The notes beneath the pieces were generated by a model that did not search any database, was not told the DNA's origin, and saw nothing but the letters and a program-made list of their open reading frames with translations. The position numbers were made by a program, and so were the translations under genes. Shown in pieces: positions 35,685 through 41,006 of a stretch of DNA of 53,661 bases. Position 1 is the first letter of the stretch. Every line of letters begins with the position of its first letter. Source of the stretch: Myxococcales bacterium (lineage in GTDB: Bacteria; Myxococcota_A; Polyangia; Polyangiales; Polyangiaceae); the NCBI GenBank assembly GCA_016794325.1, contig JAEUKG010000192.1:1-53661 (forward strand). Reading direction: 5' to 3'.

Positions 35685-35742
35685 GCGCGCAGGACGGGTA
35701 GCGCCGACGCGCGGGCGGCCGCGCGTGGTAGTCTCCCGCGCC

Positions 35743-36579
35743 GTGAGCACCGCGCGCGCCTTCGGACTGTCGGCCCTCGTCGGGCTGCTGATCGCCTGCA
35801 CGACGGGCGCCAAGCCCACCGCCGCTCCCGACCGCCCGACCGCCTCGTCGGCGAGCGCGGCGGCGCCCGCGAGCGCGACCGTCGCGGCGCCCGTCGCGAG
35901 CGCGAGCGCGACCGTCGCGAAGGCCAAGCCGGACGCCGGGGCCGAGGCGGGCGCGCCGCCTCCCGAGGACGCGGAGGTCGGCTGGACGGACCTCGGCGTC
36001 GTCGACGAGCTCGCCAAGGACTGCAGCTACACCCCGCGCGGCGTCGTCCGCCCCAAGGGCGTGGACCGCGACTTCTGGGGCGACGGTACGCCGCTCTCGT
36101 GCGAGTGGGGGCTCTACGGGCAGTCGTGCGTCGTCGATCCGTGCCTCGACGAGCAGAAGGACCTCTGCAACCCCAGGTGCCAGAAGACGTGCGAAGGCTG
36201 CGCCGCGACCTGCGTCTCGGGGTGCCAGGCGTGCAAGGCCACGTGCAAGGGGGACGCCGCGTGCGTCCACGCGTGCGCGAAGAAGTGCGGCACCTGCCGG
36301 CAGGAGTGCCTCCTCGCCAAGGACCGCTGCTCGTCGGGCGCGTGCGCGAAGCGCAACCTCGAGTGCAGACGCGAGATGATGGCCAAGTGGGTCAAGTCGG
36401 GGTGCGACAAGGCGTGCAAGGCCTTCTACGCGTGCGCCGAGGCCTGCTCCGACGACGACCCCCAGAAGTGCCGCGATGGCTGCCGCACCAAGACGCTCGG
36501 CCCCTGCACGCCGACGTTCCGGAGCGCCTGCATCTTCAACGGCCTGCTCTACGGCCCCGACGAGCTGACGGGGCCTTGA
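35743..36579 (+). CDS. Cys-rich lipoprotein
   Basis: 278 aa from GTG 35743. Lipobox LLIAC, an Ala/Thr/Ser/Pro linker, then a C-terminal region with nearly 30 Cys, many as CxxC or CxxxC: CNPRCQKTCEGCAATC, CQACKATCKGDAAC, CGTCRQECLLAKDRC, CDKACKAFYACAEAC. These look like knotted disulfide domains of a surface protein. Near the C-terminus PCTPTFRSAC resembles a formylglycine-type sequence (see findings). The last four bases, TTGA, are shared with the start of the FGE-like gene. No enzymatic domain is recognised. Confidence 0.78.
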   Translation: MSTARAFGLSALVGLLIACTTGAKPTAAPDRPTASSASAAAPASATVAAPVASASATVAKAKPDAGAEAGAPPPEDAEVGWTDLGVVDELAKDCSYTPRGVVRPKGVDRDFWGDGTPLSCEWGLYGQSCVVDPCLDEQKDLCNPRCQKTCEGCAATCVSGCQACKATCKGDAACVHACAKKCGTCRQECLLAKDRCSSGACAKRNLECRREMMAKWVKSGCDKACKAFYACAEACSDDDPQKCRDGCRTKTLGPCTPTFRSACIFNGLLYGPDELTGP

Positions 36580-37664
36580 GGCGCGCGGCCCTGCTCGCCG
36601 GCCTCGCGGTCGCCGGGTGCGGGGCCTCGCCCGCGCCCCAGCGGCCACCGCCGGCGCCGGCGGGCGCCGCGGCTCCCCGCGCTCCCACTATCCCTGACGA
36701 GATGACTCTCGTCCCCGGCGGCGCCTTCGTGCGCGGGCGCGACCGAGGTCCACGCCGCGACGAGGCCCCGGCCCACGAGGTGGTCGTGCGCGCGTTCGCC
36801 GTCGACCGCACCCTCGTCACGCGGGCCGCGTTCGCGCGCTTCGTCGCGCGTACGGGGTACGTCACGACCGCGGAGCGGGTCGGCCTCGGCACCGGCGCCC
36901 GCGAGGGGATGGGCGACTGGGAGTGGGAGCGGATCCCCCACGCGTCGTGGCGCCGGCCCTTCCGCGACGCCGAGACGACGCCCGACGCGCCCCCGACCGC
37001 GGCCGCGGACCTCGCCGCCTTCCTCCGCGACGACGCCCCGGTGGTGATGGTGAGCTGGCACGACGCGGCCGCGTTCTGCGAGGCGGCGGGCAAGCGGCTC
37101 CCGACCGAGGCCGAGTGGGAGCGCGCGATGCGCGCCGGGGCCGGGGGCTCGAGATATCCCTGGGGAGATAGTCCGACCGACGCCTCGGGCAAGCTGCTCC
37201 TGAACTTCTGGCAGGGGGCCTCCCACGAGAAGAACGATCGCGACGACGGCTTCGTGTACGTCTCGCCGGTGACGGCGTTCCCGCCGAACGCGCTCGGGAT
37301 CCACGATCCGGTGGGCAACGTGTGGCAGTGGACCGCGGACTGGTACGCGCCCGACGCCTACGCGCGCGCGGCGCCGCGCGCGGTCGATCCCGCCGGACCC
37401 GCCCACGGCAAGGAGCGGGTGCTCCGCGGGGGATCGTGGTGGTGCGGCGCGTGCACGTGCGAGGGCAACGGCCTCCACTACCGGGGCAAGTCCCACCCCG
37501 ACGCCGCGTTCAACAACAACGGGTTTCGCTGCGCCGCCGACGTGGACGCCGAGGGGCGGCTCGCGCCCGCGCCGCGAGCGAGTACGATGGGGCCCGATGT
37601 GGATCGCGCGCCCGGACGTGAAGCGAGCTCTCGACGCCCTCCTCGAGGCGACCGAGGAGGGTGA
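36576..37664 (+). CDS. Formylglycine-generating-enzyme-like (SUMF1/FGE) lipoprotein
   Basis: 362 aa starting at TTG 36576, which overlaps the preceding stop by 4 bp; no other in-frame start precedes the signal peptide (LLAGLAVAGC lipobox). The rest is the FGE-sulfatase domain: MTLVPGGAFVRGRDRGPRRD, VVMVSWHDAAAFCEAAGKRL, PTEAEWERAMRAGAGGSRYP, NALGIHDPVGNVWQWTADWY, then GGSWWCGACTCEGNGLHYRG and NNNGFRCA. The copper-binding Cys pair of active FGE is C-x4-C; here C290 and C295 have that spacing, with an extra Cys (C293) between. Lipidation suggests it acts outside the cytoplasm. The last 68 bp overlap the next gene. Confidence 0.83.
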   Translation: MRRAALLAGLAVAGCGASPAPQRPPPAPAGAAAPRAPTIPDEMTLVPGGAFVRGRDRGPRRDEAPAHEVVVRAFAVDRTLVTRAAFARFVARTGYVTTAERVGLGTGAREGMGDWEWERIPHASWRRPFRDAETTPDAPPTAAADLAAFLRDDAPVVMVSWHDAAAFCEAAGKRLPTEAEWERAMRAGAGGSRYPWGDSPTDASGKLLLNFWQGASHEKNDRDDGFVYVSPVTAFPPNALGIHDPVGNVWQWTADWYAPDAYARAAPRAVDPAGPAHGKERVLRGGSWWCGACTCEGNGLHYRGKSHPDAAFNNNGFRCAADVDAEGRLAPAPRASTMGPDVDRAPGREASSRRPPRGDRGG

Positions 37665-37956
37665 GGTCATCGCCCTCGACCGCGTGGCCGACGCGCTCGG
37701 CGACGTGACCGTCGGCACCGCCGAGGTCGAGGCGGTCCTCGACGCGCTCGAGCGCGCCGGCCGCGTGGTCTCGGCGCCCGAGGGCGGCGGCGCGTCCGGG
37801 GGCGAGTCGAGCCTCGCCGCGGTCGTGACCGCGGCGCGCGTCCTCCGGGCCGAGCTCGGGCGGGCGCCGACCCGGGCCGAAGTCGCCGCGCGCGCGGGGA
37901 TCTCCGACTCCCAGGTGGCGGTGGCCCTCCTCCTCGTGCGGGTGATGCAGCGCTGA
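37597..37956 (+). CDS. Small protein resembling sigma-70 regions 1.1 and 3
   Basis: 119 aa. The N-terminal half (ALDALLEATEEGEVIALDRV, ADALGDVTVGTAEVEAVLDA) looks like the region 1.1-type module of primary sigma factors. The C-terminal half (LRAELGRAPTRAEVAARAGI then SDSQVAVALLLVRV) resembles a region 3-like HTH. There is no region 2 or 4, so it cannot act as a full sigma factor. Its ATG lies 68 bp inside the end of the FGE-like gene. Similarity is judged by eye and is weak for the first half. Confidence 0.55.
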   Translation: MWIARPDVKRALDALLEATEEGEVIALDRVADALGDVTVGTAEVEAVLDALERAGRVVSAPEGGGASGGESSLAAVVTAARVLRAELGRAPTRAEVAARAGISDSQVAVALLLVRVMQR

Positions 37957-38018
37957 GCCGCCCGCCCCCAATGGTGATAGATTCGGGGCCGCGCCGGGAC
38001 GCGGCGCGCCCGGCTACC

Positions 38019-41006
38019 ATGCGCCACCGCGCCGCTCTCCTCGTCCTCGCCCTCGTCGTGCTCGCGCTCGGCGCCGGGTGTGGCCCGTCGCTCCGCTTCG
38101 ACCCCGCGACCCACACCGCGCTCGCGCAAGCGAAGATGCGGCGGCTCGAGACCGACAGCCTCGTCCTCTACTATCCCGATCATGCTAGAGACGAGACGCT
38201 GCGCGTCGCGGCGCGCTACGAGGCGTGCCTGCGGGTGCTCCGCTCCGCATCGCGCATCCACACGAAGGCCGCCGACGAGAAGCCGCGCGTCGTCCTCCCC
38301 GACGCGCCGCTCAACAACGCGTACGTGGCGCCGATGGCCGCCGGCGTCGAGACGTTCGCCGTCGTCCCCACCTTCGCCACCGCCGAGATCTTCGCCACCC
38401 TCGGCCTGCCGCCGGACCCGTCGTTCGTCGGCTGCCACGAGCTCGTCCACTACGTGCAAGGTCTCCAGGTGACGGGCCTGCCCGGCTTCGTCAACGAGGT
38501 CTTCGGCAACGTCATCACCCCGCAGGTCGGGCTCGACTCGTGGTTCTGGGAGGGGCTCGCGGTCTACTACGAGACCAAGGCGCAGGGCGGCGTCGGCCGC
38601 CTCGGCTCCCCCTTCTGGCACGGGCTCTTCGCCGCCGGCGTCGCGGGGAAGAAGCCGAACGGCGGCTGGATGAGCGACTTCCAGCGCGATCAGCCCTTCG
38701 GCGCGAACTACCTCACCGGCTCGCACTTCGTCGACTGGCTCGCGCGGACCTACGGCGAAGAGAAGCTGTGGATGGTGATCTCGCACCAGGCCGACTCCGT
38801 CTTCTTCCCCCTCGGGGTGAACCCGCGCTTCGGCAACGTCTACGGCAAGAACCTCTCCGGCCTCATCGACGAGTTCGCCACCTTCGTCCAGAACCAATAC
38901 AAGGTGGTCGGGCGCCCCGCCGGCCAGGTCGAGGTGCGGGAGATGGAGACCACGGCCCGCTACACGTGCCAGGGCGCGTCGGGCGCGCCCGCCGACGGAG
39001 GCGGCGCCGAGGCCGAGATCACCGCCGGCTACGACGCCGCGTCGCGGCTCGTCGTCCGCGACTCCCGCGGGGAGGTGGTCTTCGACGAGAACCTCACCGA
39101 CGTCCTCCCCGGGCGGCGCCTCGCGATCGCGAACCCGGTGCTGACGAGCGGGCTCTCGTTCACCCGGGACGGGAAATACTTGTATTTTACAGCCGTCGAC
39201 CAGGGCGAGATCCAGCAGGTCTCGCGCCTCGTGCGGGTCGACGTCGCCGCGGGGAAATACGAGGTGGTCTTCCGCGACCTCGGCGGGCCGGGCGGCTCGA
39301 TCTCCCCCGACGGCAAGACGTATTACTTCGCCCGCGCGCGCGGCGACCGCTACGAGCTCGTGGAGCTCGACGTCGCGACGTCGACGCCGCACTGGCTGAA
39401 CGACTTCGGCCCCCGCACCTACCCGCTCGCGCCGCGGGTGTCGCCCGACGGCAAGCGCCTCGCGGTCACGCTCTTCGACGGCCAGAACTTCAAGCTCGGG
39501 GTGTACGACGCCAGAGACGGCCGGCTCCTCCAGGAGATCACCCGGGCGCGCGACGAGGGCGAGAGCGCGCTCCCGAAGACCGAGGTGTGGGAGCTCGACG
39601 CGTCGTGGCTGGACGACGGGCACCTCCTCTACGCCGCCGAGTCCGAGGGGCGCATGCAGATCTTCCGCGCCGACCTCGCCGCGGGGACGACGGAGCGCGT
39701 CACCGCGGCGCCCTACCTCGCGATGGCGCCGTGCGCGCAAGGCGGCAAGCTCCGCTTCCTCAACCGCAAGGGCTGGAGCTGGACGCTCGACGAGATCGCG
39801 CTCGCGAGCCCGTCGCCGCCCGAGCTCGCGGCCCTGCCCGCGCGCGGCGCCCCCGCCGGCGCCCTCGCCGCGCGCGACAGCGGGGTGACGGTGGTGTCGG
39901 ACAAGCCCTATTCGCGCCTCGAGCGCCTGTTCGTCCCGCAGATCCGCGGGATCTCGGCGGCGACGGTGGGCAGCTTCGGCGCGACCGCCGGAGTCGGCCT
40001 CGGCGGCGGCGATCGGCTCGGCTACCACCGGTGGGCGATCGGTGCAGACTACAACTTCAAGTCGCGGCTCGTGTCGGGCAACGTCGGCTACCTCACCGCG
40101 GAGCTCGCGCCGGTCTTCGTCGCGCTCTCGGGGACCCACACCGCGACCCGCGAGAGCCTCGAGCTCGTCGAGGTCGGCGGCGTCGACCTCACCCGGCGGG
40201 AGACGACGGCCGCGGCGACGGTGATCCGCCCCTTCTACACCCACGCCTTCGCGTTCGGCCTCCTCTACGACGAGGTGCGGCGCGGCGGCTTCGAGGACGT
40301 GCGGGCCTTCGGGCCCGAGGCGAGCGCGACGTTCTCGGCGGTGGAGTCGACGCCGTACACCGGCCCGCGCCGCTCGATCACGGCGACGACCCGCGCGGCC
40401 TGGTACCCGGCCGAGACCGCCTCGCGCTCGAAGCACACCGCCGACCTCCGGGCCCAGGTGGTGACGGTGCTCCCGGTGCGGATCCTCCGCCGCCCGACCC
40501 TCGCGTTCTCGGCGCGCACGCGCCAGCTCGTGGGCACGAGCGAGGGCGAGGGCTTCCTCCAGGTCGGCGGGGGCGGCGGCACCGGCGTCTTCGCCGACGA
40601 CGCGCGCGGGGCCGGGCGCGACTCGCCCGACGACCCGCGCGGCGTCCCCCTGCCGCCGGCGATCCGCTTCTACGAGCCGCTCTTCGGCTTCGAGGACAAG
40701 GCGTTCTACGTGTCGCGGATGGGCGCCCTCGACGCGCGCCTCCGCGTGCCCATCGTCACCGACATCGGCAGCGCGTCCTCGCTGTGGCTCCTGCCCGCGT
40801 TCTTCCTCCGCGGCTTCGCCCTCGAGGCGTTCGGGGGCGTGGCGACGTTCTTCCGGCAGGGCGAGGTGCCCGCGGCGGCGGGCGCGGGCGCGGTGGTCCA
40901 GCTCGGGCTGTGGCGCATCCCCGTCGACTTCCGCGTCCACGTCTCGCGCCGCATCACCGACGACGAGAAGTGGGTCCCCTACCTCGGGGCCGACACGAGC
41001 TTCTGA
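38019..41006 (+). CDS. Gluzincin protease + beta-propeller + outer-membrane barrel lipoprotein
   Basis: 995 aa. Lipoprotein signal (lipobox LGAGC at 18-21, ATG 38019). Residues about 25-310 form a gluzincin (peptidase MA/M1-like) domain with HELVH at 140-144 and the second metal Glu at about 178 (FWEGLAVYYE). Residues about 370-640 carry TolB/WD40-like propeller blades: SFTRDGKYLYF, GSISPDGKTYYFA, VSPDGKRLAVTL. The last roughly 340 residues alternate polar and hydrophobic strands and end in a terminal Phe (GADTSF), as in outer-membrane beta-barrels of the Omp85/bacterial surface antigen kind. Having a lipid anchor, a metalloprotease and an own barrel in one chain is unusual. Motif islands occur at 38172, 39181 and 40043. 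Confidence 0.85.
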   Translation: MRHRAALLVLALVVLALGAGCGPSLRFDPATHTALAQAKMRRLETDSLVLYYPDHARDETLRVAARYEACLRVLRSASRIHTKAADEKPRVVLPDAPLNNAYVAPMAAGVETFAVVPTFATAEIFATLGLPPDPSFVGCHELVHYVQGLQVTGLPGFVNEVFGNVITPQVGLDSWFWEGLAVYYETKAQGGVGRLGSPFWHGLFAAGVAGKKPNGGWMSDFQRDQPFGANYLTGSHFVDWLARTYGEEKLWMVISHQADSVFFPLGVNPRFGNVYGKNLSGLIDEFATFVQNQYKVVGRPAGQVEVREMETTARYTCQGASGAPADGGGAEAEITAGYDAASRLVVRDSRGEVVFDENLTDVLPGRRLAIANPVLTSGLSFTRDGKYLYFTAVDQGEIQQVSRLVRVDVAAGKYEVVFRDLGGPGGSISPDGKTYYFARARGDRYELVELDVATSTPHWLNDFGPRTYPLAPRVSPDGKRLAVTLFDGQNFKLGVYDARDGRLLQEITRARDEGESALPKTEVWELDASWLDDGHLLYAAESEGRMQIFRADLAAGTTERVTAAPYLAMAPCAQGGKLRFLNRKGWSWTLDEIALASPSPPELAALPARGAPAGALAARDSGVTVVSDKPYSRLERLFVPQIRGISAATVGSFGATAGVGLGGGDRLGYHRWAIGADYNFKSRLVSGNVGYLTAELAPVFVALSGTHTATRESLELVEVGGVDLTRRETTAAATVIRPFYTHAFAFGLLYDEVRRGGFEDVRAFGPEASATFSAVESTPYTGPRRSITATTRAAWYPAETASRSKHTADLRAQVVTVLPVRILRRPTLAFSARTRQLVGTSEGEGFLQVGGGGGTGVFADDARGAGRDSPDDPRGVPLPPAIRFYEPLFGFEDKAFYVSRMGALDARLRVPIVTDIGSASSLWLLPAFFLRGFALEAFGGVATFFRQGEVPAAAGAGAVVQLGLWRIPVDFRVHVSRRITDDEKWVPYLGADTSF

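Follow-up and report, generated by a model that had tools for sequence, protein, structure and literature searches.

Predicted lipoproteins of Myxococcota joining a metallopeptidase-like domain, a TolB-like propeller and an Omp85-type barrel in one chain

The window, a stretch of 53,661 nucleotides from a Myxococcales bacterium (contig JAEUKG010000192.1 of assembly GCA_016794325.1), carries an open reading frame at 38019-41006 on the forward strand, which translates into 995 residues. The GC content at codon positions 1, 2 and 3 of this frame is 0.70, 0.51 and 0.97, respectively, and the protein has full-length homologues with 36-60% identity; on both grounds, the reading frame was taken as a real gene. 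An alternative in-frame ATG is possible at 37971, 16 codons upstream, and the start at 38019 was preferred because it results in the expected lipoprotein signal peptide. A reading frame of 1463 amino acids lying over the gene on the reverse strand (36549-40940) was rejected, as its third-position GC is 0.74 versus 0.97 in the sense frame; it is a by-product of the very high GC content of this DNA.

Three further reading frames were noted upstream. The first (35725-36579) encodes a Cys-rich putative lipoprotein of 284 amino acids, with many CxxxC-type spacings and a lipobox-like start, for which no Pfam match was found. The second (36099-37664) contains a formylglycine-generating-enzyme/sulfatase-modifying domain (PF03781, E=6e-64) with a lipobox-like AVAGC ahead of it, and is likely a second lipoprotein gene upstream. 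The third, just upstream (37597-37956), encodes a small protein of 119 amino acids with a Sigma70 region 3-like HTH; a 42% identical counterpart precedes the orthologue in a genome of the same genus (L073:6918-7358), and none was seen at the other compared loci.

The features assigned to the 995-residue protein are the following, all on the forward strand:
38019..38078, + strand: lipoprotein-type signal peptide, residues 1-20 (MRHRAALLVLALVVLALGAG), from the translation and the hydrophobic stretch before the invariant Cys
38079..38081, + strand: lipobox Cys21, the predicted lipidated +1 residue, with G at +2 and F at +7
38082..38918, + strand: gluzincin-like (peptidase MA-like) metallopeptidase domain, residues 22-300, mostly helical, from the AlphaFold2 model and profiles
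38226..38228, + strand: Cys70, invariant in the subfamily and missing in the canonical family, from the alignment
38433..38435, + strand: Cys139, immediately before HExxH, invariant in the subfamily and mostly Thr in the canonical family, from the alignment
38436..38450, + strand: HELVH, predicted zinc-binding motif, residues 140-144, on helix 134-148, from the alignment and the AlphaFold2 model
38550..38573, + strand: EGLAVYYE, residues 178-185, on helix 174-188, with E178 as presumed third zinc ligand, from the alignment and the AlphaFold2 model
38928..39800, + strand: TolB-like beta-propeller, residues about 304-594, from PD40, the TolB profile, TolB structures in the PDB and Foldseek
39939..40997, + strand: 16-stranded Omp85-type beta-barrel, residues 641-993, from AlphaFold2, Foldseek and profile-profile comparison
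40533..40715, + strand: 61-residue loop between strands 11 and 12 (residues 839-899), equivalent to Omp85 loop 6, from the AlphaFold2 model and its position
40680..40697, + strand: LFGFED, residues 888-893, counterpart of (V/L)RG(F/Y) with Arg replaced by Phe, from the alignment

A search for the same architecture showed that the protein is not a one-off. Homologues were retrieved with a three-sequence alignment as the query; a genome-contig search with the single protein found nothing, and a 33-sequence alignment was too diverse to be used as a query. The inner circle of relatives, referred to here as the lipidated subfamily, comprises 23 Myxococcota proteins including that of the window, and forms a single clade (support 1.0 in the tree). 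All 23 have Cys21, Cys70, Cys139, HExxH and E178, as well as the whole architecture where complete, one member (L092) being cut by a contig end. The members come from MAG contigs (L072-L079, labelled Myxococcales, Deltaproteobacteria or similar) and from further Myxococcota genomes. The outer circle, the canonical family, consists of proteins of about 1000 residues at approximately 20-23% identity, which combine a zinc motif of the HEYTHILH type, a TolB-like propeller and an Omp85 barrel, and which have type I-like signal peptides without a lipobox. The two circles were joined because in profile-profile comparison their peptidase domains match (99.9%, E=3e-31), and so do their barrels (99.3%, E=2.5e-20); judging from these sequence relationships, the lipidated clade is a branch of a larger, non-lipidated three-domain family. 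Of 379 sampled Myxococcota genomes, 17 carry the lipidated subfamily (E below 1e-100), distributed over several families, and the canonical family occurs in 204 of 284 sampled ones, these counts covering Myxococcota genomes only. The genome of the window also encodes a canonical paralogue (L048, on contig C541), which breaks off behind the propeller where the contig ends, and such paralogues are present in other genomes carrying the lipidated subfamily. A search for plasmid homologues found none.

We then focused our attention on the N-terminus. The preliminary description of this DNA had proposed a lipobox, and this was borne out: LGAG precedes Cys21 after a hydrophobic signal peptide in the window protein, the Cys is invariant in 23/23 subfamily members, and a hydrophobic stretch lies ahead of it in all of them. 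The strict textbook lipobox is L-[AST]-[GA]-C, with Leu at -3, from which the Gly found here at -3 departs. Moreover, Cys70 and Cys139 are both present in 23/23 subfamily members, and at those positions in none of the 33 aligned canonical relatives. A disulfide possibly links these two residues and braces the active site; alternatively, Cys139 could possibly represent a Cys near the zinc.

Regarding the domain that follows, the HELVH motif lies exactly at residues 140-144, with EGLAVYYE downstream, as the same description had it. H140, E141, H144, E178 and E185 are invariant in 23/23 subfamily members, and the first four of these also in 33/33 canonical ones. The gluzincin pattern, HExxH with a downstream Glu, is thus represented by H140/E141/H144 and E178. 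Relationships to known peptidases are distant: the Pfam family Peptidase_MA_2 gave sub-threshold matches in 9/22 members (best E=1.4e-4), the window protein itself being below the cut-off, an M48 profile matched one canonical member (E=8e-4), and the search for a significant PDB match to the peptidase domain gave none. The TolB/WD40-like blades were readily confirmed, as the window protein matches PD40 (E=1.8e-7) and the TolB profile (E=2e-9), the joint profile of the lipidated and canonical circles matches TolB structures in the PDB (E=3e-42), and the best PDB matches of the full-length model in Foldseek are TolB.

Because propellers made up most of the matches when the full-length model was searched with Foldseek, the barrel was also modelled alone. 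In the full-length AlphaFold2 model, of moderate confidence (mean pLDDT 72, pTM 0.71) and built on an alignment of only 9 subfamily sequences, 16 long strands lie within residues 641-993, preceded by a short propeller-barrel linker, partly of low confidence; the C-terminal 378 residues alone again gave 16 strands (pLDDT 74, pTM 0.69). Therefore, the last approximately 340 residues are predicted as a barrel, and neither as extra propeller blades nor as a soluble domain. The best 50 PDB matches of the barrel-only model all belong to the Omp85 superfamily (BamA, TamA, FhaC, Sam50 and Toc75), with a best E of 5e-9, TM-scores by query length of about 0.4-0.6 and 9-12% identity. The barrel profile of the subfamily alone matched nothing in Pfam or the PDB; the Omp85 assignment therefore relies on the structural matches and on the link to the canonical family, of which 12/19 members match Pfam Omp85 and which also matches BamA/TamA. 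In addition, the joint profile of both circles matches the BamA of D. radiodurans (8xnb, E=2e-4). Hydrophobic alternation in the strands is weakly above that of shuffled sequences (58/2000 shuffles reach it), and given this weak margin it was not used as main evidence. The barrel had been described as ending in a Phe; the barrel itself holds, and the terminal Phe is present in the window protein but not conserved across the subfamily. No Pfam match to a POTRA domain was found in the window protein or in the canonical family.

Considering systems already described, the canonical family matches, as far as the main text of Heinz and Lithgow 2014 (PMC4104836) presents it, the architecture of the WD40-Omp85 subfamily, which was likened there to a BamA-BamB fusion. 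Both that subfamily, as presented, and the window protein have a TolB-like propeller directly N-terminal to an Omp85 barrel, without POTRA. However, an N-terminal HExxH peptidase goes unmentioned in that main text, and compared with the architecture described in it, the window protein and the other 22 subfamily members are predicted to be lipidated, have two extra invariant Cys and a diverged barrel. The combination of an N-terminal lipid with an own Omp85 barrel has a precedent in the 'Lipo' subfamily of Bacteroidetes/Chlorobi, for which the same text reports a lipid anchor in 386/513 proteins; unlike the window protein, these are described with three POTRA domains and without peptidase or propeller, and they occur in other phyla. 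The 'Metallo' subfamily of that text was considered and set aside as different, being defined there by PF00149, a calcineurin-like phosphoesterase in Pfam.

Where would the peptidase be located? Bacterial Omp85 proteins that have been characterised carry the domains ahead of strand 1 in the periplasm. A 16-stranded barrel of this type starts and ends on the periplasmic side, and hence the domains ahead of it are expected in the periplasm; a placement of loop 6 on the outside fits such a topology. Moreover, the periplasmic leaflet would be the default place of an N-terminal lipid in the outer membrane. A further precedent is PlpD, long the model of Omp85 self-export, whose enzyme domain was shown to remain periplasmic (PMC11116518). 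PlpD resembles the window protein in that a single chain carries an enzyme domain ahead of an Omp85 barrel, and differs in having a patatin phospholipase and POTRA instead of a zinc peptidase and propeller (PMC11116518). Altogether, the protease is most likely periplasmic and not surface-exposed, the barrel topology, the inner-leaflet lipid and the PlpD precedent leading to a model in which peptidase and propeller form a periplasmic unit with both of its ends attached to the outer membrane.

As a whole, the protein is probably a lipidated member of the WD40-Omp85 group acting as a periplasmic, outer-membrane-tethered metallopeptidase, with a possible part in BAM-linked quality control. It would be exported by Sec, lipidated at Cys21 and routed by Lol to the inner leaflet of the outer membrane, and BAM would insert the barrel, so that peptidase and propeller would be suspended in the periplasm with an anchor at either end. 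More tentatively, the propeller could bind BAM/Tol-Pal partners or substrate proteins, and the zinc site might cut proteins where the outer membrane faces the periplasm, e.g., misassembled outer-membrane proteins. A single chain would then do jointly what the separate BepA (protease), BamB/TolB (propeller) and BamA (barrel) do in E. coli. BepA is a periplasmic zinc peptidase of the M48 family acting on the BAM complex (PMC8423444); it shares the HExxH and the zinc peptidase type with the window protein, and differs in being a separate soluble protein of another peptidase family, without propeller or barrel (PMC8423444). By analogy with BepA and with the BamA/TolB-type parts, a role near BAM in outer-membrane protein quality control is possibly what these proteins have. 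Among the compared loci, no widely conserved neighbour suggesting a function was found, as flanks differ (kinases, phosphoesterase, HTH protein), and hence the neighbourhood offers no genetic pointer to BAM.

It is also possible, though we hold it to be rather unlikely, that the peptidase is anchored in the outer membrane and periplasmic but unrelated to outer-membrane protein assembly, the barrel serving as an anchor only while the enzyme processes other envelope proteins or peptides. The Arg of the (V/L)RG(F/Y) motif is important for the function of BamA and FhaC. This motif belongs to loop 6, which sits between strands 11 and 12 of Omp85 proteins (PMC4890855), and residues 839-899 form the sole very long loop in the barrel model. 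The loop-6 motif with R889 is found in 19/22 subfamily and 31/31 canonical sequences, and its Arg is lost, as LFGF in the window protein and L072 and as LTGY in L073, L072 and L073 being its two nearest relatives; judging from the alignment, this loss is secondary and confined to three close relatives. The barrel of the window protein may consequently be an anchor only, and the patchy occurrence of the lipidated form beside its far commoner canonical paralogue suggests a specialised, dispensable role. Nevertheless, retention of the motif by most of the subfamily indicates that the barrel is not degenerate in general, and its full-length conservation likewise speaks against a mere anchor.

The preliminary description had gone further, proposing a self-exporting surface protease tethered at both ends. 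The double tethering, by lipid and own barrel, stands; the surface location and self-export find no support. According to such a type Vd-like reading, which we regard as improbable, the barrel, or BAM during assembly, would move the protease together with the propeller to the surface, and lipid and barrel would tether them there. Protein export is known from Omp85/TpsB relatives, FhaC among them, and lipoproteins are flipped to the cell surface in some bacteria; barrel, enzyme and lipid are here within one chain, and a surface protease would suit predatory myxobacteria. However, with an even-stranded Omp85 barrel whatever precedes strand 1 is placed on the periplasmic side, export would have to move two folded domains of about 600 residues across, and the POTRA that lies between passenger and Omp85 barrel in type Vd autotransporters was not found; the type Vd model PlpD itself keeps its passenger periplasmic (PMC11116518). 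In lipoproteins of M. xanthus, Lys at +2 gives a tendency to stay in the inner membrane, and Ala at +7 directs to the extracellular matrix (PMC3222651). In the alignment of 23 members, neither residue occurs at these positions in any of them, the window protein (G, F) included, so that the extracellular-matrix signal is missing as well. Least probable of all is that the HExxH domain, distant as it is from known peptidases, is a catalytically dead binding module in a scaffold, since all four catalytic or ligand residues are invariant in 56/56 divergent sequences, which is unusual for a dead enzyme and argues for retention of the predicted activity.

Returning to the periplasmic, outer-membrane-tethered metallopeptidase, the fusion of a conserved protease with an Omp85 barrel would link proteolysis directly to the outer-membrane assembly scaffold. 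As a tentative and rather doubtful extension, the WD40-Omp85 proteins of Myxococcota might be single-chain machines for outer-membrane protein assembly and quality control, uniting a BepA-like protease, a BamB/TolB-like propeller and a BamA-like, insertase-type barrel, the lipidated form being a specialised second copy. The canonical form is widespread in the sampled Myxococcota genomes, and the main text of the published architecture description notes the propeller alone. The lipidated branch represents a natural comparison, as it keeps the three domains, differs in anchoring and has lost the loop-6 Arg in one lineage. Overall, the family makes the function of POTRA-less Omp85 proteins a testable question.
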